Below, piece after piece: positions 18,123 to 53,043 of a DNA stretch of 64,000 nucleotides; positions within the stretch are counted from its first letter, which is position 1; each line of letters starts with the position of its first letter. Source of the DNA: Thermoproteota archaeon (lineage in GTDB: Archaea; Korarchaeota; JAOZGF01; JAOZFZ01); assembly GCA_027492035.1 (NCBI GenBank), contig JAOZFT010000015.1, forward strand, positions 9,540-73,539. Direction: 5' to 3'. The translations under genes were made by a program, and so were the position numbers. The notes under the pieces were generated by a model that was given only the letters and a program-made list of their open reading frames with translations, searched no databases and was not told the origin of the DNA.

Positions 18123-18215
18123 TTATGCACTAGGTTTTAATTAAAGCTGAATATTCCCTTTCTTTATTGAATTTTTAAAGGGTTTAAAAAAATAACTTAT
18201 GGAGTGGTTTCGGAA

Positions 18216-19670
18216 TTGCGAGAAGGAGTTAAAGGGGGGCAATTAAGGATTTTAAGTAACGAAGATTTGCGGCAAATTTATGTAGCAACCCTTCATCTAC
18301 TTGAAAAGCAAGGTGTAAAGGTGGAAAATGAAAAAGCCTTAAACATACTGGCTAAATCTGGCGCCATGGTGGATAAAAGGAGGAAAATTGCTAAAATTCC
18401 AGGCTACATGGTTGAGGAAGCAATTAAAAAGGCACCGAAAAGTATAAGGCTTTGCGGCAGAAACAGAAACCAAGATTTTATTCTTGAAGGAAAAAGAGCT
18501 TACTTTGGAAGTGGGGTGGGGACCACCCATATTTACGACCTTTATACTGGGGAATACAGAAAAACAAGGAAGAGAGACGTGGAGGACGCATTCAAGCTTT
18601 CAGATGCTCTTCCAAATATTGATCATGCCTGGGGGTTGTTCAGTTGTACAGACGTACCTTCCAGCGTTGTTGGGCTCCATGAGCTTGAAGCAGGTTTAAC
18701 AAACACCACTAAACACATTTGCATCTACACTTGGCATGGCAAACCCCAAATAAATAAACAAATTGAAATGGCTAAGTTAGTAGCTGGAGGTGAAGAAGAA
18801 CTCAGGAAAAGGCCTCTTGTCACCCTCTACAATGAGCCCCATTCACCTCTAACCTACGGAAAAGATTATTTAGATTCCTTAATGGAGTGGGCTAAAGCTG
18901 GGTTGCCTCAAATTTGGTACCCAGCCCCTATGTCAGGGGCTACTTCACCTGTAACAATGGCTGGGACACTGGTTCAAGGCTGGGCTGAGTCATTAGGAGG
19001 ATTGGTGATAGCTGAACTCATTAACCCAGGAACCCCTTTCATTGTAGGTACAGGTACTTTCCTCATGGATATGAAGACTTCCTCTATAGTTTATGCTTCA
19101 GCTGAATGTATGCTTTTAGCCGTTGCAATAGCCCAGATTGCCCATTATCTAGATATCCCTCTATTTGGATTGGCAGGAGCCTCAGATTCGCAAGTATTGG
19201 ACGGGCAGGCATTAGCAGAATCAGCTATGTATCTTGCTATTTCAGCTTTAGCAGGTCAAAACCTTATTCACGACTTAGGGTACCTAGCTTCAGGTTTAAC
19301 GGGGAGTTTAGAACTTTTAACAATTTGTGATGAAATAGTGGCGATGGTTAAAAGGATAGCTAAAGGAATAAAAGTTAATGATGAAACATTAGCTTTGGGC
19401 GTAATAGAGAAAGTAGGTTTTGGAGGGAATTACTTAAAGGAGAAACATACAAGGAAACATTTCTGGACTGAACACTTAGTTCCAGATTTAATGAATAGAG
19501 ACTTTCACTCTGGATGGGTGAAAAAGGGAGGCAAAACTTTGGAGGAGAGGGCTAGAGAAAAAACAAAGAAATTACTTAAAGAACATGAGGTTGAGCCTTT
19601 AGATAAAGAAGTAAAAAAGAAAATTGAAGAAATAATTAAGGAAACGACGAAAGAAACAACGAAAATATGA
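18216..19670 (+). CDS. MttB-family corrinoid methyltransferase, pyrrolysine-free (copy 1)
   Basis: A 484-residue member of the trimethylamine methyltransferase superfamily. Characterised pyrrolysine-free members (MtgB, MtpB and others) demethylate quaternary amines such as glycine betaine and proline betaine onto a corrinoid protein. The GVKGGQLRIL start and the GASDSQVLDGQALAESAMYLAISALAGQNLIHDLGYL region match its two paralogues at 37364 and 45422. There is no in-frame amber codon. I prefer the TTG at 18216, which aligns with the paralogue starts and has GGAGTGG upstream, over the GTG at 18204. It is followed after 17 bases by a proline racemase-family gene, which suggests a proline-type betaine substrate. 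The corrinoid partner would be encoded elsewhere in the window. Confidence 0.9.
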   Translation: MREGVKGGQLRILSNEDLRQIYVATLHLLEKQGVKVENEKALNILAKSGAMVDKRRKIAKIPGYMVEEAIKKAPKSIRLCGRNRNQDFILEGKRAYFGSGVGTTHIYDLYTGEYRKTRKRDVEDAFKLSDALPNIDHAWGLFSCTDVPSSVVGLHELEAGLTNTTKHICIYTWHGKPQINKQIEMAKLVAGGEEELRKRPLVTLYNEPHSPLTYGKDYLDSLMEWAKAGLPQIWYPAPMSGATSPVTMAGTLVQGWAESLGGLVIAELINPGTPFIVGTGTFLMDMKTSSIVYASAECMLLAVAIAQIAHYLDIPLFGLAGASDSQVLDGQALAESAMYLAISALAGQNLIHDLGYLASGLTGSLELLTICDEIVAMVKRIAKGIKVNDETLALGVIEKVGFGGNYLKEKHTRKHFWTEHLVPDLMNRDFHSGWVKKGGKTLEERAREKTKKLLKEHEVEPLDKEVKKKIEEIIKETTKETTKI

Positions 19671-36320: not shown

Positions 36321-37223
36321 TTAGGATATTCTGTATCTGGGATGGCTTTTTGGAAGTTTAATCTTTTCCTCTATTAACAATTGGCCGAAGGAAGCATCTA
36401 CCAAACTTATTGCTGGGAACATGTATTCTGCGTCTCTTAATGGGCCGTACAATATGAAATCAGCTCCTAAAGCTGTGGGAAGTATACATGAAGAAGCTGT
36501 AGAAGCTATTACTCCTTCTTGGCTTATTTTCTTCTTCAACCCTTTCCACTGACTTACTGCATTATGGGCTCCGCAGCCGGCTGGAACACCGAATTTATCC
36601 TTTATTTCAAATAAAGCCTTTGTAGCCATTCCAAGAGTTGGTATGTCCAGTACTGTTGTGTCTACCAGAATGTTTTCTAATCCAAGTTCCTCAGCCTTCT
36701 TTATTAATTCCCCAGCTACTTCAACTCTTCCTTTTGAGGAAATTATTGCTTTCATTCCGTAAGTTAGTAACACTGCACTTTTTAAACCAACCTCTTTCAC
36801 TTTGTTTAAAACAACTTCTTTTGTTTCTGGAGTTATTGAGTTCAGAATTATTCTAGACAACAAACCTGTTTCGTTTGAATACTCTAACCCTTCAACCATT
36901 GTTTCATTACTTAATCCATCTAAAAGCAAAGGAACATCTGAATTGTTAGCTGTGAAATCTAAAAATTTTTTCATAGCCTCAGGAGTTGTCCCTACAACAT
37001 CCAGCATTAAAGGTAAACCTGTTAAATCAGACATTTCCAAGGCTTTACTTAACTCTTCCCCGGCTTCTTCTTCATTAAACACTCCCTTGTCAGGGTCATT
37101 AACTACCCTATGTCCTCTGTAAAAGATACTTCCTATTAACACTGTCGGATTCTCCCCAGGATTTCCCCCCAACTTGATGCCTCCTATTTCAACAATTTTT
37201 TGTTTAGCTTTAAATTTCCACAT
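36321..37223 (-). CDS. MtrH-like methyltransferase (corrinoid to tetrahydropterin)
   Basis: A 300-residue homologue of tetrahydromethanopterin S-methyltransferase subunit H. It starts with the family block KAKQKIVEIGGIKLGGNPGE, then PTVLIGSIFYRGH and DVVGTTPEAM. MtrH moves the methyl group between the corrinoid and the pterin. No other Mtr subunits are present, so it is likely a soluble, free-standing enzyme. It is the third gene of an operon with a corrinoid protein and an MttB homologue, which completes a methylamine-to-tetrahydropterin route without coenzyme M. It starts at the ATG at 37223. Confidence 0.92.
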   Translation of the reverse strand: MWKFKAKQKIVEIGGIKLGGNPGENPTVLIGSIFYRGHRVVNDPDKGVFNEEEAGEELSKALEMSDLTGLPLMLDVVGTTPEAMKKFLDFTANNSDVPLLLDGLSNETMVEGLEYSNETGLLSRIILNSITPETKEVVLNKVKEVGLKSAVLLTYGMKAIISSKGRVEVAGELIKKAEELGLENILVDTTVLDIPTLGMATKALFEIKDKFGVPAGCGAHNAVSQWKGLKKKISQEGVIASTASSCILPTALGADFILYGPLRDAEYMFPAISLVDASFGQLLIEEKIKLPKSHPRYRIS

Positions 37224-37363: not shown

Positions 37364-38821
37364 TTAGTGAACAACTTCTTTAGCTGCACTTTTGATCACT
37401 TTGTCTATTTCATCTACTACATCCTTGGGTAAAGGTGTAACTTCGTGTTCCTTCAATATTTTTCTGGCTTTCTCTCTAGCCTTCTTCGTCAAGTCTTTGC
37501 CTCCTTCACTTATCCACTTCCTCCAAGAGGATTTGCTTAATAGATCAGTTAGGTAATGTTCCTGTTTAAAAAGTTTCCTTGTGTGTTTAAGGCTTAAATA
37601 ACTTCCTGCATGACCTGCTTCCTTTATAGCTTCAACTGCTAAAGTTTCTTCATTTACTTCAACTCCCTGCAACAATCTTTTAATCATCCCTATTAATTCA
37701 TCACAAATCACAATGAAATCAGCGCTGCACAGCAAACCTGAGTCCATGTAGCCTATATCATGGATAAGGTTTTGGCCACTTAAAGCAGCTGCTGCTATAT
37801 AAAGCGCCGCTTCAGCAGCTGCTTGTGCATCAGTTAATTTAGAATCTGTACACCCTGTAGTTCCCCAAAGGGGAATATCGTAGTAGTGAGACATCTGGGC
37901 GAGCATGACAGCCATCAATAAAGTTGACGCTGTTGTATAAGAAGTTACAGCGTATTTCATATCTAGAACCAAAGGCACCCCACCGTAAATGAAGGGGGTA
38001 CCTGGGTTTAACAATTGAATTATAACGTTTCCTCCCAAGGATTCGGCGCTTGTTTGAACCACTGAACCTGCAAGAGTGACAGGGGCAGTTGCCCCGCTTT
38101 GTGTGCAAGGGGCCCAAACAATTGGCAATCCCTTCTTAACCCATTCAAATAATGCCTCAATGTAATCCCTGCCGAAAATTAATGGGGATTGTGGTTCATC
38201 GTATAAGGTAACTATTGGTTTCCTTCTCAGTTCTTCTTCACCCCCGGCTACGAGTTCAGCTATTTTTATTTGCAGTTTCGTTAACTCTGCACCATGGTAA
38301 CTGTACATTACAAAATGTTTTTCGGTATTAAGCAGTACAGCTTTTTCTTCATATAACCCCATTAAGCCAGAAGGAGCGTCGCTAGCTGTACCTGAACCCA
38401 TTGCAAAGTCAATATTTTCTAATGCATCCCCTAACCTAGTTAGTTCCTCCATGTCCTTGAATGTGCACCTTCTCCTTTCACCTGTTTCAAGGTCTAAAAC
38501 ATAGGTTTGACCGCTTCCTGTACCAAAATATGTCCTTAACCCTTCAAGAACAAAGTCGTATTTTGGGTTCCTACCGTATAACCTAATTGTTTTGGGGGCC
38601 TTTTTAATTGATTCTTCAACTAAGTACTGAGGTATCTTAGCGATTTTAGTTTTAAAATCAACGTCAGCTCCTGCATCCTTAAGGAGTTTTAAAGCCCCTT
38701 CATGTTCAATTTTTATTCCGTGCTGTTCCAGAACTTTCAACACTGCCAAATGTATATCGTATATTTGGTCATTAGTTAAAATTTTGAGCTGCCCCCCCTT
38801 TAATCCACCCCTCATTCTCAT
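37364..38821 (-). CDS. MttB-family corrinoid methyltransferase, pyrrolysine-free (copy 2)
   Basis: A 485-residue MttB superfamily protein, with GGLKGGQLKIL at the start and GTTGCTDSKLTDAQAAAEAALYIAAAALSG-type sequence in the barrel. No in-frame amber codon, so it is a quaternary-amine rather than a Pyl-dependent trimethylamine enzyme. The ATG overlaps the stop of the corrinoid gene by four bases (ATGA), so the two proteins are translationally coupled and very likely partners. mtrH follows after 140 bases. Substrate candidates are betaines. Confidence 0.92.
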   Translation of the reverse strand: MRMRGGLKGGQLKILTNDQIYDIHLAVLKVLEQHGIKIEHEGALKLLKDAGADVDFKTKIAKIPQYLVEESIKKAPKTIRLYGRNPKYDFVLEGLRTYFGTGSGQTYVLDLETGERRRCTFKDMEELTRLGDALENIDFAMGSGTASDAPSGLMGLYEEKAVLLNTEKHFVMYSYHGAELTKLQIKIAELVAGGEEELRRKPIVTLYDEPQSPLIFGRDYIEALFEWVKKGLPIVWAPCTQSGATAPVTLAGSVVQTSAESLGGNVIIQLLNPGTPFIYGGVPLVLDMKYAVTSYTTASTLLMAVMLAQMSHYYDIPLWGTTGCTDSKLTDAQAAAEAALYIAAAALSGQNLIHDIGYMDSGLLCSADFIVICDELIGMIKRLLQGVEVNEETLAVEAIKEAGHAGSYLSLKHTRKLFKQEHYLTDLLSKSSWRKWISEGGKDLTKKAREKARKILKEHEVTPLPKDVVDEIDKVIKSAAKEVVH

Positions 38822-39474
38822 CCCTTCCCAATTAACCTTTTAGCTACTTCAACTGCTTCTGTAGCATCTGCTCCATGTCCATCAGCCCCTATTTCCTCAG
38901 CCCATTCAGGACTTGTAGGGGCTCCTCCAACTATAACTTTGTACTTATCCCTTAACCCCCTCTTTTTAAGTTCCTCGATGAGTTTCTTCTGGACAGGCAT
39001 TGTAGTGGTTAATAATGCAGAGGCACCTATTATGTCAGCACCGTTTTCTTCAGCTGCTTTAATGAAGTTTTCAGGAGGTTGGTCGTTGCCTATCTGAATC
39101 ACCCTGAAACCTGCTGCCTGAAGCATTGAAGCAACTATCCTCTGCCCTATATCATGTATATCCCCCTCAACTGTACCTATCACAATTGTTCCTACGTATT
39201 CAGCTTTCTCCTTTGATTTCTCCAATGCAGGCCTCAAAACAGTCATAACACTGTTCATAACCTCAGCTGACCCAACTAAATCCATCAAAAATATTTCTCC
39301 CCTCCCAAACTTATCCCCTATCTCTTTCAATTTTTTTGATAATGCATTCACAAGTTCAACAGGGCTCATGCCACGTTTTTCAAGTAATTCCTTAGCTAAC
39401 TCGTCAGCACCCTCCGGTTCAGCTTCATCAAGTCTCTTCAACAACTCGTTAAGCACATCTTCTTTAGTGGACAC
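38818..39474 (-). CDS. Methylamine-type corrinoid protein (MttC/MtbC family)
   Basis: A 218-residue cobalamin carrier. An N-terminal helical cap domain (1-90) precedes the B12-binding Rossmann domain with the axial-ligand motif DIHDIG at Asp105-His107-Gly110, then SALLTTTMPVQKKLIE and VGGAPTSPEWAEEIGADGHG. It starts with GTG preceded by GGGAGGTG. First gene of the corrinoid-MttB-MtrH operon. It receives the methyl group on Co(I) and hands it to MtrH. A TATA-like AAATTTATAATA lies just upstream. Confidence 0.95.
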   Translation of the reverse strand: MSTKEDVLNELLKRLDEAEPEGADELAKELLEKRGMSPVELVNALSKKLKEIGDKFGRGEIFLMDLVGSAEVMNSVMTVLRPALEKSKEKAEYVGTIVIGTVEGDIHDIGQRIVASMLQAAGFRVIQIGNDQPPENFIKAAEENGADIIGASALLTTTMPVQKKLIEELKKRGLRDKYKVIVGGAPTSPEWAEEIGADGHGADATEAVEVAKRLIGKG

Positions 39475-45421: not shown

Positions 45422-46888
45422 TTAGTTTTTGGATGTAACTTTGGCTATTTCTCTGGCCTGCTTTAGTATTTCTTCAACTCTTTCCCTTGTTTCAGCCGGT
45501 AAAGGTTCTATTTCATGTTCCTTCAATATTTTTAAGGCTTTCTCCCTTGTTCTTTTAACTATATCTTTAGCTCCAAGTTTCATCCACATACTGTATGAAA
45601 AACTTCTATCCAACAATTCATTAATGAAATGTTCCTCCTTAAAGTATTTCCTTGTATGTTTAAGCTTTAAGAAGTTTCCAGCATGTCCAGCTTCCATTAT
45701 TTCGTTTACAGCAAGTCTTTCCTCATCCACCTTTATTCCTTTCATGAAAAGCTTAGTTTCACCTATTACCTCATCCGCAAAAACCAGTATCTCATGGGAA
45801 GTTGTAATTGCTGAGTCAATATAGCCTATGTCATGAATGAGGTTTTGGCCTCCGAGAGCCGCAACCATTAAGTTCCTTGTTGCCTCAGCAAAAGCTTGTC
45901 CGTCAAGCACCCGTGAATCTGAACATCCACCAGTACCCCACATCGGGATTCTTAAATAATGACAAAGCTGAGCTTGTGCTGTTCCAAGCATCAAATCCTC
46001 AATTGCTCCATAAGAGGTAACTGTCGTCCTCATATCCATAACCATAGGTACAAAACCGAAAATGAAAGGGGTGCCAGGGTTTATAAGTTGAGCTAAAACG
46101 TTTCCACCTATGGATTCCGCCATTCCTTGAACAATTGAACCAGCTAAAGTTACAGGGGCTGTTGCACCAGTGATTGGGCAAGGGGCGAAAACAACAGGTA
46201 ACCCCCTCTTAACCCATTCAATCAAAGCTTCTACATAGATTTCGCCGTAAACTAACGGGGATTGCGGTTCATCATACATGGAAACTATGGCTCTCCTTTT
46301 TAACTCCTCTTCACCACCCGCCACTTCTTCAGCTATTTTAATCATTAGTTTAGTCAATTCTGCACCATGGTAAGCGAAAACAATTGAGTGCTTCACTGTA
46401 TTGGACATTATTGCATATTGTTCATAGAGGCCTTGAACCTCTGTCGGAACATCAAAAGGAGTAGCTAAACCCATTGCGTAATCAATGTTCGGTAACGCAT
46501 CTGATAATTTAGCTGTGTTCGCTACGTCTTGAAGGTTGGTTTTTCTTCTTTCACCTGTTTCAAGGTCTATTATATGGGTTGTTCCACTGCTTGTGCCAAA
46601 AAAAACTTTCCTGCCTTCAATAATAAAATCTTGCTCTTTACTTCTTCCACAAAGCCTAACTCTCCTCGGTGCCTTCCTTAATGACTCCTTAACCAAATAC
46701 TCTGGGAATTTAACTACTTTACTTTTATAATCAACTATTGCACCTGCATCTTCAAGTAGTTTAAGAGCTTTGTCATGCTCTATTTTAACTCCATGCATTT
46801 CTAAAACGTTAAGGATAGCGTAATAAATGTCTTCTATTTGTTCCTTGGATAAAATTTTCAACTGTCCCCCCTTTAATCCTTTCCTCAT
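45422..46888 (-). CDS. MttB-family corrinoid methyltransferase, pyrrolysine-free (copy 3)
   Basis: A 488-residue MttB superfamily protein (MRKGLKGGQLKIL start; GTGGCSDSRVLDGQAFAEATRNLMVAALGGQNLIHDIGYI-type barrel segment). It is closest by eye to copy 2. There is no in-frame amber codon and it ends in TAA. It stands alone with its own promoter and a palindrome upstream, and convergent with a DAO flavoprotein. It presumably shares one of the two corrinoid proteins of the window. Confidence 0.92.
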   Translation of the reverse strand: MRKGLKGGQLKILSKEQIEDIYYAILNVLEMHGVKIEHDKALKLLEDAGAIVDYKSKVVKFPEYLVKESLRKAPRRVRLCGRSKEQDFIIEGRKVFFGTSSGTTHIIDLETGERRKTNLQDVANTAKLSDALPNIDYAMGLATPFDVPTEVQGLYEQYAIMSNTVKHSIVFAYHGAELTKLMIKIAEEVAGGEEELKRRAIVSMYDEPQSPLVYGEIYVEALIEWVKRGLPVVFAPCPITGATAPVTLAGSIVQGMAESIGGNVLAQLINPGTPFIFGFVPMVMDMRTTVTSYGAIEDLMLGTAQAQLCHYLRIPMWGTGGCSDSRVLDGQAFAEATRNLMVAALGGQNLIHDIGYIDSAITTSHEILVFADEVIGETKLFMKGIKVDEERLAVNEIMEAGHAGNFLKLKHTRKYFKEEHFINELLDRSFSYSMWMKLGAKDIVKRTREKALKILKEHEIEPLPAETRERVEEILKQAREIAKVTSKN

Positions 46889-47061: not shown

Positions 47062-47682
47062 TTAACAGAGCAAAACTAACCCAACTCTGACGATTTTGTC
47101 CTTAGTTGGAAAACTAATAGGTGCCCCTGCTCTTTTGCATGTTTCTACGACATCTATTCCTAGAGCCTCCATTGAGGGCCTAGCCATGAAAGGTTTTGAA
47201 CAGAAGGGGGTCCCTTTCTTGAGGTTGCATTCCTTACATAATCTACACTGCCCTGAAGTTAATCCTGCAGCAAATCTGTAACCCATTTGGAAAGCTAAAG
47301 CCTCAACTTTAGAAACTACTTCATAAAGCTTCATTGCACTTGGTGCAACTACTGCTTCATAACCCTTTTCAGAATACGCTTCTGCCAGGTTGCTTTTACC
47401 TTCTATAACTTTGTTTTTCGGGATCTTATCAGTAAGTTTTATAAGAATAGCAACTCGATATTTTTTCAAAACCTTTTTGAACTCTGGTAAAGAGGGTACA
47501 TAGGGTGGACACATTAAATTGGTGTTGTAGTTTGGGCAAAGTGGAACTATACACTTAAATTTTACCCTTTCATCTAACACTATATCCTTTGTTGGTATTA
47601 TTTTACAGAAGGAAGCACCTGACTCTTTAGCTTTTTCGCATAACCTGTTAAAAGCTGCATCCTCAGCTTTCTTTTCAATCAT
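47062..47682 (-). CDS. DUF2284 cysteine-rich predicted metal-binding protein
   Basis: A 206-residue protein with many cysteines: CIVPLCPNYNTNLMCPPYVPSL (near 49-70), then CRLCKECNLKKGTPFC (about 147-162) and the C-terminal ETCKRAGAPISFP that is typical of DUF2284. The arrangement suggests an iron-sulfur or other metal site. It follows the MoxR-VWA gene by 11 bases at the end of the MtmB operon. The function of DUF2284 is not known to me; helping to supply electrons or metal for corrinoid activation is a guess from context. Confidence 0.85.
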   Translation of the reverse strand: MIEKKAEDAAFNRLCEKAKESGASFCKIIPTKDIVLDERVKFKCIVPLCPNYNTNLMCPPYVPSLPEFKKVLKKYRVAILIKLTDKIPKNKVIEGKSNLAEAYSEKGYEAVVAPSAMKLYEVVSKVEALAFQMGYRFAAGLTSGQCRLCKECNLKKGTPFCSKPFMARPSMEALGIDVVETCKRAGAPISFPTKDKIVRVGLVLLC

Positions 47683-47693
47683 AGAAACACTTT

Positions 47694-49571
47694 CTAAATT
47701 ATTTCGGCTACTTTATATGGTAACTCATTGAAATTGTCAAGGAAAGTGTAGTTTCCATTTGTGGCCTTTGACAAGTCTTTACAAAGATCTACACTTTCTT
47801 TTCTTCCACCTCCAATTCCTACCTGTACAACATTTAGTTTATCAAATTTTTTAGCCACATGTCTTGGATCTTCCCCTCTCGTAACCCAACCATCCGTTAT
47901 GAGGATTCCTAATTTTTCACTTATATCTGCTCTTATGTTGGCTTCATCTAACTCATCTAAACCCTTCTTTAAAGCCGTTTCTATGTTTGTCAACCCGCCT
48001 GTTTTTAAATTCAAAATTTTCCTTATCACTTCAGTTAGTTCTTCCTGTTCAAACACAGATTTTACCACTTCAGGTTTATCCTTAAAAGATATAACTGAGC
48101 AGTAATCATCTTTAAATTTAATAAGTAACGTAGCTGCTGCAATAGCTGTCAAAACTATTTTTTCCCTTTGCATGGAATTGCTTGTATCCAGCATCACAGC
48201 CACTCCAACTTTCCTCGGAATTTTCTGCATACACACTATGTCTTGGTAATCAATCACTTTTTTACCTATTAAGTTTTCAAAGGTTAAATCTTCATCTATT
48301 TCTTCCAATCCAGGAACAAATTCACTTCTTTCTTTACGTACTCTTCTAATCCTTTTTCCAGCTATTCTATGAGCAATCTCTAAAACCATTTTTATAATTA
48401 AATCCTCGATTTTCCTTTTTGTTACCGCATCTAAAGCTCTTTCACTAAGTAAAGAATAAATTTTTATAACTGGCCATTCATAACCTTCTTTTTCAGCTTT
48501 CAAAACCAAATTTAAAACTTCATCATCACTTAATTTCTCAATAAAACCCGGTTTTTCAATTGCTTCCTTAACAGCTTCAATTATTTTTGTGTTCCGTTCC
48601 CGGAAAGAAACCCCTTGTTTTTTCCTATTTTCCACAATGTTTTGTCCTTGTTTAAGTTTATTGCTATTGACTCCCCAGTTTTCATTTTTAGGTGTGAAGG
48701 GGTTACTACCCCAGTTAAGTTCTTTAAGAACAGAATAGACTATTTCTTTTATTATCTCGCTCAATTTCTTTTCCGTCTTACCTATTAAAGCAACTTTTGT
48801 GTACATTGCTGAAACAGCTAAGTTTACGATTAGTTCAGGGTTTAAGTCAGGGTTTCTTCTATTTTTCACTAGTTCGACAAAATCTACAGCTCCCCTAATT
48901 GAGGCTCCATGTCTAAATTCAGGATGGACCCTTGTTTTTCTCATAATCTTGACAGCAAGTGTAAGTACTTTTCGGTCTTCGAACCCTGTTTCCTTCCTGA
49001 CAATATCTATTTCCTCTTCTTCGCTTTGGTAACTTAACCCTATCCACACGAATCGGTCTCTAAGTGCTTCACTTAACCTGCTTGTGCCAACGTACTCTTG
49101 GGGATTTTGTGTAGCTATAACCAGAAAACCTTCCTTAGCCTTTATTACACCTATTTTTGGAATGATAATTTGTTTTTCATCCATTGCAGGAAGCAAAACA
49201 TTCTGTGTTCCCTCAGGCATTCTGTTAAGTTCATTTATGAAAAGAACACCACCCTCTATCATTGCTTGAGTCAAGGGGCCTGGTATGAAGGACTTCCAGC
49301 TGTACCCTTTAGATAAGACAATTGGAGGATCAAACCAACCTGTTAATTTGTGTTCAGTGTACCTTTCATCGCCATCCACCCGGTAAATTTTTCTCCCTAA
49401 GAAATTGGCTACAGCTGCAGCTAAAGTTGTTTTCCCTATACCTACAGGGCCTTCAAGTAAAACATGTTTATTTGAAAGTGCAGCATTTAAGATGTTTTTC
49501 AGTTCCTCTTCTCTACCAATAATCCTATATTTCCTCTTTATCTTCTTTATGGCTTCCTCTAAATTGAACAT
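47694..49571 (-). CDS. Fused MoxR AAA+ ATPase-VWA domain protein
   Basis: A 625-residue protein. Residues about 15-260 are a MoxR-type AAA+ domain with Walker A GPVGIGKTT, Walker B GGVLFINELNRMP and ATQNP sensor. A linker follows, and from about 445 a von Willebrand A domain with MIDAS motif DTSNS and a later ITDG. MoxR/VWA pairs insert metals or rebuild enzymes (chelatases, CbbQ/CbbO, NorQ/NorD). Here both are on one chain with an intact ATP site. I start at the ATG at 49571 with CAGGGAAG upstream. Its position after an MtmB-like gene suggests it activates the methyltransferase or its corrinoid protein; a cobalt chelatase role is the main alternative. Confidence 0.88.
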   Translation of the reverse strand: MFNLEEAIKKIKRKYRIIGREEELKNILNAALSNKHVLLEGPVGIGKTTLAAAVANFLGRKIYRVDGDERYTEHKLTGWFDPPIVLSKGYSWKSFIPGPLTQAMIEGGVLFINELNRMPEGTQNVLLPAMDEKQIIIPKIGVIKAKEGFLVIATQNPQEYVGTSRLSEALRDRFVWIGLSYQSEEEEIDIVRKETGFEDRKVLTLAVKIMRKTRVHPEFRHGASIRGAVDFVELVKNRRNPDLNPELIVNLAVSAMYTKVALIGKTEKKLSEIIKEIVYSVLKELNWGSNPFTPKNENWGVNSNKLKQGQNIVENRKKQGVSFRERNTKIIEAVKEAIEKPGFIEKLSDDEVLNLVLKAEKEGYEWPVIKIYSLLSERALDAVTKRKIEDLIIKMVLEIAHRIAGKRIRRVRKERSEFVPGLEEIDEDLTFENLIGKKVIDYQDIVCMQKIPRKVGVAVMLDTSNSMQREKIVLTAIAAATLLIKFKDDYCSVISFKDKPEVVKSVFEQEELTEVIRKILNLKTGGLTNIETALKKGLDELDEANIRADISEKLGILITDGWVTRGEDPRHVAKKFDKLNVVQVGIGGGRKESVDLCKDLSKATNGNYTFLDNFNELPYKVAEII

Positions 49572-49641
49572 TAGACTTCCCTGCAAAAATGATTAGTAAG
49601 TACTAAGTTGCTAATGCTTCTTTAAAAAAAGAGGAAGGTAT

Positions 49642-51027
49642 TTATTTGTACCACTCTATTCCGATATCACTTAACTCCCTTTTAACTGATTCATATATTT
49701 TAATGTAACTTTTTGCGGGTTTCACCCTCTTTATGTCATAGCATTCTTGGAATTTTTTACCTAAGGGGGCGTTCTTGATTTTGTCACTATATTTCTTCAA
49801 AATCTCTTTCACGATAACGTTTGCATCTGTTCTTTTCATTCCCAATACTGAATACGCTATTTCAGCCGCAAATTTAGGTTCTAAAGGTGTGAAATAATCT
49901 TCATGCTTGTTTTTAGCCACCCCTACTGCCTCTATGTGGCCGCCGGAAACAATTGGTGAAATTACTGACGCAGCGGTTTCGTAGAGAACCATGTCAGTAT
50001 GAGGCCCTGCAGCCACATACACCAAAGGAATGGTTAAAAAGTTTGTGTTAAGGCTTACAGCTTGGGTGTAGACCGAATTTACCCAGATCAAGTCAGGGGT
50101 TGTGTTACAGACGTGCCATATGTGTAGAGGGAAGGGGCTGAAATAAACAGCTTTAAAAACAAGGCTTCCTAAAAAGTGATGTGCAACTGTTGAAACAGCT
50201 GACCCTTCAGGTCCTCCAGCGTATCCACCAACCATTGGGGAGAAGTCGATGTCAATGGGTGCACCAAAGGACATTATGGTACATGCTTTGTTTAATCTGT
50301 CAAAATCAACTTTCATAGGATCAAGAACCCCTATCATGAACCCATCTGACTGCCTTAGTCCATATTTTGGATGTAAAGCAGCTGCGAGAGAAACAGCTGA
50401 TTCAGCTGTCGAAAGGGTGTTCATGATAGGTATACCAGGTCTTCCAACTCTTCTCATTCCTTCTCTAGCTAAAACAGCATTTCTTATAGCTCCCAAAACC
50501 TCTAAAGGTGACCTGGGTCTAATTCTCATTCCATTCACATTAGTTAAAGCAGGGGTGGTGATAGAGTTTGTTTCAGGTATAGAGGCATACCCTTCCATCA
50601 ATGCTAGAAATATAGCTTCAGAAGATACTGGCCCACCTGCTGCACCTAAGAAGCACCATGGAGACTGTTTATCTTCAGGTTTTCTAGGCATCAATGCTTT
50701 TCTATCGTTTCCTTCTCCGAAATAAACCTTTTTTGGGGCTTTTCTCAATTCTTCCTTAACTTCCTCCTCACTAAACTTTATTACTCTACCAGTGTCAACA
50801 CAATAGGCACCTGTTTCAACAAAGAATTCAAAAGCTGCATTAAAAACGTCTTTAGCCAAGCCGTTATCAGCTGGAACCAGTTCTTCACCGTCATACTTTA
50901 TGTCATACTCCTTTACCTTCTCTCTTAAGTTTTTTGAATAAATTCTTAGTTCATAATCTCTTGGAAGTACAGGTTTACCTGTTAAAGCTTTCTCCATCAC
51001 ATCTAAAAACGTAACCAATTCTATCAC
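49642..51027 (-). CDS. MtmB-like methyltransferase with Met in place of pyrrolysine
   Basis: A 461-residue homologue of monomethylamine methyltransferase. GAYCVDTGRVIKF, the GRPG turn (195-198), VGGYAGGPEGSAV, GPHTDMVLYETAAS and the C-terminal GKKFQECYDIKRVKP all match the family. In methanogens codon 202 is amber for pyrrolysine; here the aligned residue is Met202 (codon at 50422-50424, ATG). It therefore belongs to a pyrrolysine-free branch and may use a different substrate than monomethylamine. It follows a corrinoid protein gene by four bases. Start is GTG at 51027; a TTG at 51018 is possible. Confidence 0.92.
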   Translation of the reverse strand: MIELVTFLDVMEKALTGKPVLPRDYELRIYSKNLREKVKEYDIKYDGEELVPADNGLAKDVFNAAFEFFVETGAYCVDTGRVIKFSEEEVKEELRKAPKKVYFGEGNDRKALMPRKPEDKQSPWCFLGAAGGPVSSEAIFLALMEGYASIPETNSITTPALTNVNGMRIRPRSPLEVLGAIRNAVLAREGMRRVGRPGIPIMNTLSTAESAVSLAAALHPKYGLRQSDGFMIGVLDPMKVDFDRLNKACTIMSFGAPIDIDFSPMVGGYAGGPEGSAVSTVAHHFLGSLVFKAVYFSPFPLHIWHVCNTTPDLIWVNSVYTQAVSLNTNFLTIPLVYVAAGPHTDMVLYETAASVISPIVSGGHIEAVGVAKNKHEDYFTPLEPKFAAEIAYSVLGMKRTDANVIVKEILKKYSDKIKNAPLGKKFQECYDIKRVKPAKSYIKIYESVKRELSDIGIEWYK

Positions 51028-51031
51028 TTCC

Positions 51032-51697
51032 TCACTTCTTCTTTTTTTCTAAAAGAGTAGCCGCCACTTTAACTGCATCCGTTGCAGTTTCTCCATACCC
51101 ATCCGCGCCTATTTGTTCAGCCCATTCTGGAGTTGTTGGTCCTCCTCCAACTAAGACTATATATTTCTCTCTTACTCCTTGGGCCTTTAAGTATTCAATA
51201 ACATCTTTTTGTCCGCCAATGGTTGAGGACATTAAAGCTGAAACAGCTATTATATTTGCCCCGAATTTCTCTGCTTCTGTGTAAAATTTAGCTGCTGGAA
51301 CATCCACCCCTAAATCCAAAACATCGAAACCGTTAACTTTCAGCATTGTTGCCACTACATTTTTTCCTAATTCATGAATATCTCCCATCACTGTACCAAT
51401 TACGACTTTACCCTTCTTCTCCTCAAGTTTTGCAGTTTTAGGTATATGGGGAAGCAATATTTTCAAGGCCTTATCCATAGCTTCACCAGCCATCATCAAA
51501 TCTGTTAAGAATATTTCCATTTTTTCAAATTTTTCCCCTACAATTTTCATTCCTTCAGCCAGTCCCTTCTCTATTGCTTCTAAAGGATTAATGTTTGCTT
51601 TAATTATTTCCTTGGATAAATTAACTACCTCATCTTCATCTATTTCAATAATAGCCTTCTTTAACTTGTCAATTAGCTCAGCGCCCTTATTACTCAT
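51032..51697 (-). CDS. Methylamine-type corrinoid protein (MtmC/MttC family, copy 2)
   Basis: A 221-residue cobalamin carrier with an N-terminal helical cap and the axial histidine in GDIHELG (Asp106, His108, Gly111), followed by SALMSSTIGGQKDVIE and VGGGPTTPEWAEQIGADGYG. Start at the ATG at 51697 with GAGAGGTGA upstream. It heads the operon corrinoid protein, MtmB-like, MoxR-VWA, DUF2284. It is clearly paralogous to 38818-39474. Confidence 0.95.
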   Translation of the reverse strand: MSNKGAELIDKLKKAIIEIDEDEVVNLSKEIIKANINPLEAIEKGLAEGMKIVGEKFEKMEIFLTDLMMAGEAMDKALKILLPHIPKTAKLEEKKGKVVIGTVMGDIHELGKNVVATMLKVNGFDVLDLGVDVPAAKFYTEAEKFGANIIAVSALMSSTIGGQKDVIEYLKAQGVREKYIVLVGGGPTTPEWAEQIGADGYGETATDAVKVAATLLEKKKK

Positions 51698-51941
51698 TTA
51701 CTCTTTCACCTCTCGGGTTCCCCCCTCCTGTAAAAATTTTAAATAATTGATGTTATTTTAGGAATAAGTGCCAAAAAATATTTTTAAATTTAACTTTTTT
51801 CTCTCTCCTAAGGATCAGTTAAGAAGATTTCTGGAAGAATCTTAATTGGAGGGTAGCCGTGAAAATTAAAGAATAGAAATTGAAGGGAAAAACTTAATTA
51901 AGACAACTTCTGCATTTCCCCCAATTTTTTGCTTTTTGTTT

Positions 51942-52830
51942 TTAAACTATGTTTTCCATGCCTTTAAGGTCATAGAGAATTAAGTTCAGGTTTTCAATTT
52001 TTATTTTTTCTTTTCCTTGGATTTCTCTTGTTATTAAGCAATAGGTTTTCTCTTTTATTTCAATTTCTTCAGCTTTGGCTTTAAGTTTTTTCAGGATTCT
52101 TATTGTTTCTAACGGTTTCAGGACCCCTCATTTTACCTCTGCCAATATTGCTTTATCTTTGGATTTGTTAATGGCTAACAAATTTATTTCAGCAGGATTT
52201 CCTCTTTTTGTTTTCCACCATTACCCCCAATCTTGGTTATTGTGAAAGATAGATTCCTGTTCTCTAAAAGAAACTTTTTTAGCTACTTCCTTGAAAATCT
52301 GTCTCATATAATGCGAGTATCCCCTCTTAATATTCTTTAAAAGGCCCCCTCCCCTATTAAGTCCTTATTTGGATAATGTAACGGAACCAGAAATTGAAGT
52401 AATTATCTTTGAGTTTGTAGAGCCTTTTCTTAGCGACTGGTTTTTCTAGAACAGGGGTTTCATAAGAAACTATCTCTAAGGTTCGGAGTGTTTCTAGATA
52501 ACGTGTAACAGCAGCTCTGTCCAGGCCTGTTGTTTCAGCTATTTCATTCACTTTTCTTCAGCCTTCAGCCACAGCCTTAAATATCAACTTGTAATTCCTT
52601 GTTTCCCTTAACTCTTGTCTGAGAAGATTTTCAGCTTCTTCATACGGCTCCCCTCAAGAGAAGCCTATCTACATTCTCCCAAAATGTGAGATTTGGTTTT
52701 AACTTAACTAAATATGCAGATATTCCCCCCATGGAACCGTATACACGCAAAAACATCTGAGTAACTATATCCAAGCACAAATTCCCTTGTAGCTTACGTT
52801 GTTCTTGTCTTGATTTTCTTCTTCATCCAC
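51942..52830 (-). pseudogene. Decayed archaeal ATPase (PF01637/DUF234 type)
   Basis: Fragments of one gene can be followed on the minus strand across frames: VYGSMGGISAYLVKLKPN, TFWENVDRLLL, EEAENLLRQELRETRNYKL, a winged-helix part NEIAETTGLDRAAVTRYLETL, FNFWFRYI then NKDLIGEGAF in another frame, then GNPAEINLLAINKSKDKA, and a tail to 51942. I count in-frame stops at 52558-52560 and 52128-52130, another in the DWG-stop-WW segment, and at least three frameshifts. The order matches the C-terminal half of archaeal AAA ATPases with a DUF234 domain. The N-terminal ATP-binding part is missing or unrecognisable. Confidence 0.88.
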
Positions 52831-53043
52831 CAATTTACGTAACATGTGTCACGATAATTATTTTAAACTATTTTACTAAATTATTAACAGTATTAGCGAG
52901 AAAAGGTAAGTAAAAGAAATGAAAAGGTTTGATAGAGGATGGGTCGTAATTATTTAAAGGATTTTTTTAAAATAAATTTTTTAAATCTAAATGGAGGATT
53001 GCGTCCTTAATTTTTCAGAAAAAGTGTTGTAGAGGTTTTTAAA

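Follow-up and report, generated by a model that had tools for sequence, protein, structure and literature searches.

MtmB is the enzyme whose structure first revealed pyrrolysine (Pyl). A clade of the family that has the same barrel, and an invariant, ordinary residue at the Pyl site, opens the purpose of pyrrolysine to direct test. The sole characterized pyl-free MtmB homolog, MtqB of Methanococcoides methylutens Q3c, was described in March 2026 by Kashyap and colleagues (PMC13044021). MtqB demethylates tetramethylammonium (37 nmol/min/mg) and choline (42 nmol/min/mg) and, weakly, monomethylamine (11 nmol/min/mg). It is called the first demonstrated function of a pyl-free MtmB, and the accompanying tree of 1,061 MtmBs includes numerous other pyl-free proteins without an assigned function (PMC13044021). 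Thus, the statement in an earlier note on the DNA examined here, that no pyrrolysine-free MtmB had been characterized, was true until recently and is now out of date. Pyl-free enzymes also exist in the MttB superfamily (MtgB and others; PF06253). The characterized pyl-free MttBs cited in PMC13044021 and PMC11291895 act on quaternary amines. Here, we analyze a pyl-free MtmB-family protein encoded within a methyl-group island of a non-methanogenic archaeon. By “the window,” we mean the whole 64-kb stretch of DNA that was analyzed.

A Full-Length MtmB Homolog with Methionine at Residue 202

The features discussed below are collected in Table 1. The earlier note gave the correct coordinates for the mtmB gene, which lies on the minus strand; the plus-strand frame is riddled with stops. 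Its product matches the MtmB profile PF05369 from position 2 to position 450 of 450 (327.5 bits, 1.7e-97; curated cut-off, 25 bits). PF05369 is the sole Pfam match: the MttB superfamily profile PF06253 is not matched, nor is any NCBIfam model. A phmmer alignment joins the protein to Methanosarcina barkeri MtmB1 (1L2Q) with an E value of 9.8e-63. An AlphaFold2 model built from a 34-row alignment (pLDDT 95.8) superposes on the MtmB structure 1NTH with a Z score of 59.2 and 1.4 Å over 455 residues, and the next-ranked structures are MtgB and MttB (Z 24). The full-length profile match, the 1L2Q alignment, and the predicted fold bear out the earlier identification of the protein as an MtmB homolog. 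The GRPG turn and the C-terminal block, here PLGKKFQECYD, are conserved, as the earlier note stated.

Table 1. Features of the window and sites of the MoxR-VWA/DUF2284 module
Feature	Position	Strand	Evidence and remarks
Pyl-free MtmB-family methyltransferase, 461 aa, GTG start	49642..51027	-	PF05369; 1L2Q; fold match 1NTH
ATG codon of Met202, aligned with Pyl202 of M. barkeri MtmB1	50422..50424	-	Alignment to 1L2Q
Corrinoid protein, GDIHELG motif, likely methyl acceptor	51032..51697	-	TIGR02370, 220 bits (cut-off 215); PF02310; PF02607
Fused MoxR-type AAA ATPase and VWA, directly downstream of mtmB	47694..49586	-	AAA_5; VWA; neighbors conserved at L058, L049, L105
DUF2284 predicted metal-binding protein, sole genome copy	47062..47682	-	PF10050, 147 bits
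Pyl-free MttB-family methyltransferase, ends same-strand run	45422..46888	-	PF06253, 304 bits
Second corrinoid protein	38818..39474	-	PF02310, 105 bits
Second pyl-free MttB, same run as MtrH and corrinoid protein	37364..38821	-	PF06253, 328 bits
MtrH family, the genome's only one; likely methyl-corrinoid:H4MPT methyltransferase	36321..37223	-	PF02007, 255 bits; NF002142 over cut-off
Third pyl-free MttB, beside Liv-type transporter (by eye) and proline racemase-family gene (PF05544)	18204..19670	+	PF06253, 323 bits
MoxR-VWA/DUF2284 module, window	47062-49586		
MoxR-VWA/DUF2284 module, L058	2183-4697		
MoxR-VWA/DUF2284 module, L049	559-4997		
MoxR-VWA/DUF2284 module, L105	6347-9361		

Compared with M. 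barkeri MtmB1 (1L2Q, 1NTH), the window protein shares the full-length fold, the GRPG turn, the GGYAGG and C-terminal blocks, and a corrinoid partner gene. The two proteins differ in that they are 29% identical (structural alignment), Met replaces Pyl202, E259 and Q333 are replaced, one residue is inserted after 202, and the host genome, G000, has no PylS. Specifically, GRPGIPIM of the window protein pairs with GRPGMGV-Pyl of 1L2Q, gap-free from the GRPG turn to the Pyl site, which is also residue 202 in the window protein's own numbering. The earlier reading of the codon as ATG, not amber, is correct, with the codon on the minus strand, and the frame contains neither TAG nor any other in-frame stop. 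E229, E259, Q333, and Y335 correspond to M, D, L, and Y, respectively, in the window protein. The inserted residue, Asn203, follows residue 202 directly and is a second, less likely, candidate for the structural equivalent of Pyl202; its codon is not amber either.

Could the methionine lie beside the true site, with the insertion shifting the alignment, or could the gene be decaying, so that Met202 would be meaningless? The insertion does sit right after residue 202, and Asn203 could structurally match Pyl202. The frame, however, is full length, the alignments are gap-free from GRPG to 202, the model places residue 202 within a barrel strand (201-203), and both Met202 and Asn203 are retained across the clade described below. 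Moreover, relative to the ortholog in the sister genus (L006 in G001; 86% identity), purifying selection is strong, with dN 0.08 and dS ~2.7, a saturated value. We regard displacement or decay as very improbable. The earlier note had considered that an alignment might move Met202 off the site: Met202 holds its place, and a shift is rejected apart from the N203 insertion that directly follows.

The Met202-Asn203 Clade and the Ancestry of Pyrrolysine

MtmB-family proteins were gathered from three sources: 394 genomes sampled as relatives, a set of named public genomes, and 389 Thermoplasmatota genomes. Met202-Asn203 occurs in 12 proteins from several archaeal groups and one Spirochaete. These are the window protein; its G001 ortholog; four proteins of two Thermoplasmatota genomes (L072 and L141 in G394, L139 and L140 in G658); two further Thermoplasmatota proteins (L075, L076); two copies on one Bathyarchaeota contig (L073, L074); L031 of G209; and the Spirochaete protein L080. 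Nine of them are rows in the tree, where the clade has support of 100/99, or 99/92 without the Spirochaete; L139-L141 are outside the tree and were assigned by motif. A second Spirochaete copy adjoins the first and groups with it, and has Leu202-Asn203. Scores across the 389 Thermoplasmatota genomes fall into two clearly separate sets: four stop-free proteins at 734-807 bits, and all others at ≤350 bits, with an in-frame TAG. No PylS above the cut-off was found in any of the eight Met-clade genomes tested (G000, G001, G209, and G394-G398). Given Met202-Asn203 in all 12 scorable members, together with strong purifying selection, Met202 reflects more than chance. The window protein is a pyl-free MtmB-family member and a predicted demethylase, in a well-supported clade; its most likely substrate is a quaternary ammonium compound. 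A literature search found no paper describing the Met202 clade, a possibility that the earlier note had entertained.

Other residues also mark the clade. W124 and M202-N203 are invariant in it and rare elsewhere, T157 and E366 are invariant in its eleven archaeal members, and F299 is common to the Met clade and to a clade with Lys202, at a position where Pyl enzymes have Gly. Met202-Asn203, Trp124, Thr157, Phe299, and Glu366 may line a cation pocket, in roles that we infer. The E259 position varies among D, I, E, and C within the clade, so members may differ in substrate. A further notion is that Met202-Asn203 participates directly in catalysis where Pyl would sit: the thioether of Met would touch the cationic methyl or even accept it transiently as a sulfonium before cobalt does. 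We give this notion very little credence; if it were true, a canonical amino acid at pyrrolysine's position would be doing a job related to pyrrolysine's.

The likeliest MtqB candidates in our set are L049 and L050, from a methanogen family (f31) taken to be Methanosarcinaceae; the choice rests on an immediately upstream corrinoid gene and on a CMCP motif consistent with the Met and Cys reported as conserved. Like MtqB, the window protein belongs to PF05369, is pyl-free, and has a corrinoid gene directly upstream. In contrast to the candidates, which have Val or Ile at 202 and the CMCP motif, it has DFSP at the motif's place and lies on a separate branch (L049 is 33% identical). Orthology to MtqB, which is represented here by candidates only, is not supported. 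The nearest deep clade on the tree is the Lys202 clade, which comprises a G000 paralog (L001) and proteins of Heimdall- and Hodarchaeota. It shares with the window protein an adjacent corrinoid gene (in L001 and L079) and Phe at 299; it differs in having Lys at 202 with no insertion after it, and identity is ~40%. G000 has both types.

The tree, built without residue 202's own column and with no root inferred, places all TAG-bearing MtmBs in one clade (16 rows, 100/100). The Pyl versus non-Pyl state changes once, while residue 202 overall changes at least 17 times. E229, E259, Q333, and Y335 are kept in every TAG-bearing member examined; the Met clade does not keep them as a set. Since Pyl sits in a single clade and needs one change only, against the many at residue 202, it is, on these sequences, more probably derived than ancestral, and the breadth of the non-Pyl branches favors a single late gain on this unrooted tree. 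Loss of Pyl from a Pyl-MtmB ancestor is, by the same distribution, not favored. The earlier phrase “methionine at the pyrrolysine position” is therefore misleading insofar as it implies substitution. The Met clade makes it directly testable whether an older pyl-free enzyme acquired pyrrolysine or whether pyrrolysine was lost.

Several other homologs were observed. In Candidatus Hecatella orcuttiae and an Aerophobetes bacterium (L083 in G407, L086 in G402), PylS is over the cut-off, and the MtmB homologs seen have Val at 202. A Bathyarchaeota homolog (L088:5642-7084) has TAG in place of the Tyr of GGYAGG in a genome with no PylS match; this TAG could be a sequencing error, decay, or unusual decoding. 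Finally, Methanosarcinaceae-like genomes harbor a further pyl-free paralog (L039-L048) with GREG for GRPG, Met, Val, or Phe at 202, E229 retained, and no adjoining corrinoid gene.

Predicted Function

The host genome, G000, comprises 42 contigs totaling 1.87 Mb and is 93% complete. It encodes three MtmB-family proteins, none with TAG, with Met (window), Lys (L001), and Leu (L003) at 202. The best PylS match in this 93% complete genome scores 24.7 bits against a cut-off of 178, leading us to reject a hidden Pyl system, and a tRNA gene search within the window found none. McrA was not found in G000. Present are CdhC, one RACo-type activator, one MtrH (in the window), and a CdhE-like gene, named by eye, that adjoins the Leu202 paralog. 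All three MttB genes of the genome lie within the window. The window is a methyl-group island of a non-methanogen.

We propose, with moderate confidence, that the window protein is a B12-dependent demethylase that probably acts on a quaternary ammonium compound. The proposal draws on family, fold, residue, clade, gene context, and the presence or absence of partner genes, and it predicts substrate, direction, and partner pairing. Specifically, the methyl donor would be an N-methylated compound, most likely a quaternary one (for example, a betaine or a choline-like molecule), and the acceptor would be Co(I) in the corrinoid protein whose gene ends 4 bases upstream of mtmB. Quaternary ammonium compounds carry their positive charge from the outset, so covalent activation of the kind that Pyl provides for monomethylamine would be unneeded. 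The single MtrH would demethylate the methyl-corrinoid to yield methyl-tetrahydromethanopterin, which would enter the acetyl-CoA (Wood-Ljungdahl) pathway, rather than methanogenesis, given that McrA is absent. The single RACo-type activator would re-reduce Co(II). Such a system would resemble pyl-free MttBs in lacking Pyl, in its proposed use of a quaternary amine, in having a corrinoid protein and an acceptor enzyme of MtrH/MtgA type, and in its related barrel, but MttBs form a separate protein family (~10-13% identity in structural alignment). The Met clade also points to methylated-amine use by archaea unable to make methane.

Support for a quaternary amine comes from the substrates of MtqB (PMC13044021) and from the three pyl-free MttBs in the same window. 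In the other direction, the mtmB run has no transporter or catabolic gene that names a substrate, and MtqB, represented in our set by inference only, sits in another clade and has some monomethylamine activity (PMC13044021). The last point, together with a fold the same as that of MtmB, could suggest that monomethylamine is still demethylated, by a Pyl-independent mechanism. We consider this improbable: Pyl is regarded as essential to methylamine activation (PMC9842639), and the window protein has other residues in place of E259 and Q333, which are constant among Pyl enzymes. The earlier expectation that the substrate chemistry should differ agrees with the incomplete E229/E259/Q333/Y335 set and with the lack of a PylS over the cut-off in the genome.

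Two other substrates deserve more weight, although both are unlikely. The enzyme could act on a tertiary or secondary N-methyl compound produced by the neighboring MttB, the two enzymes stripping methyls successively. Indeed, an MttB gene lies within ~4 kb of the Met-clade gene in the window, L074, L139, and L140, which makes paired or sequential demethylation possible, and in the window MttB closes the same-strand run 51697-45422. On the other hand, neutral amines leave poorly without Pyl, MtqB is inactive with trimethylamine (PMC13044021), and MttB is on the opposite strand in L074 and L139. Slightly less likely again is a non-amine donor, such as a methylated sulfur compound, a sulfonium, or a methoxy compound. 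The pocket residues are unlike those of Pyl-MtmB, and related B12 methyltransferase barrels accept many donors; yet the PF05369 members characterized so far use amines, and MttB-family genes are abundant in the context.

Gene Context and a Recurrent MoxR-VWA/DUF2284 Module

Most relatives of the window mtmB have a corrinoid gene beside them. At L073, in Bathyarchaeota, tightly packed, overlapping genes encode, in turn, a saccharopine-dehydrogenase-like protein, a corrinoid protein, MtmB, and MtrH, and RACo is encoded on the opposite strand. This gene order is the strongest hint of a route from substrate to corrinoid to MtrH to tetrahydromethanopterin.

A less expected result concerns the genes downstream of mtmB. 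A MoxR-type AAA ATPase, VWA, and DUF2284 adjoin mtmB genes in three distant archaeal groups, whether or not the enzymes bear Pyl. Within the window's own class, the module occurs in G000 and G001. In the Methanosarcinaceae-like genome G155, it adjoins a pyl-free MtmB, and in G131, at a locus with Pyl enzymes, it lies between mtbB and RamA-mtmB-mtmC. Each of the four genomes has one DUF2284 gene. A literature search on DUF2284 or MoxR with corrinoid methyltransferases found nothing on this gene module. It appears to be a previously undescribed module for maturing or activating corrinoid methyltransferases, with the MoxR-VWA fusion as a possible maturation or activation factor.

Genes farther from mtmB were also noted, several of them by eye. 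The MttB genes are surrounded, over window positions 11270-36247, by a Liv-type ABC transporter, a proline racemase-family gene, aminotransferases, a 2,4-diaminopentanoate dehydrogenase-like gene, an HpaB-family gene, and FAD oxidases, a cluster that suggests use of a betaine-type amino acid derivative. Elsewhere in G000, the Lys202 paralog (L069:9671-11065) adjoins a corrinoid gene and a Liv-type ABC transporter-like run. On the minus strand at 51700-53040, which has no listed open reading frame of ≥80 aa, there are fragments similar to an archaeal AAA ATPase that carries a winged-helix C terminus (DUF234 type), by eye a decayed gene.
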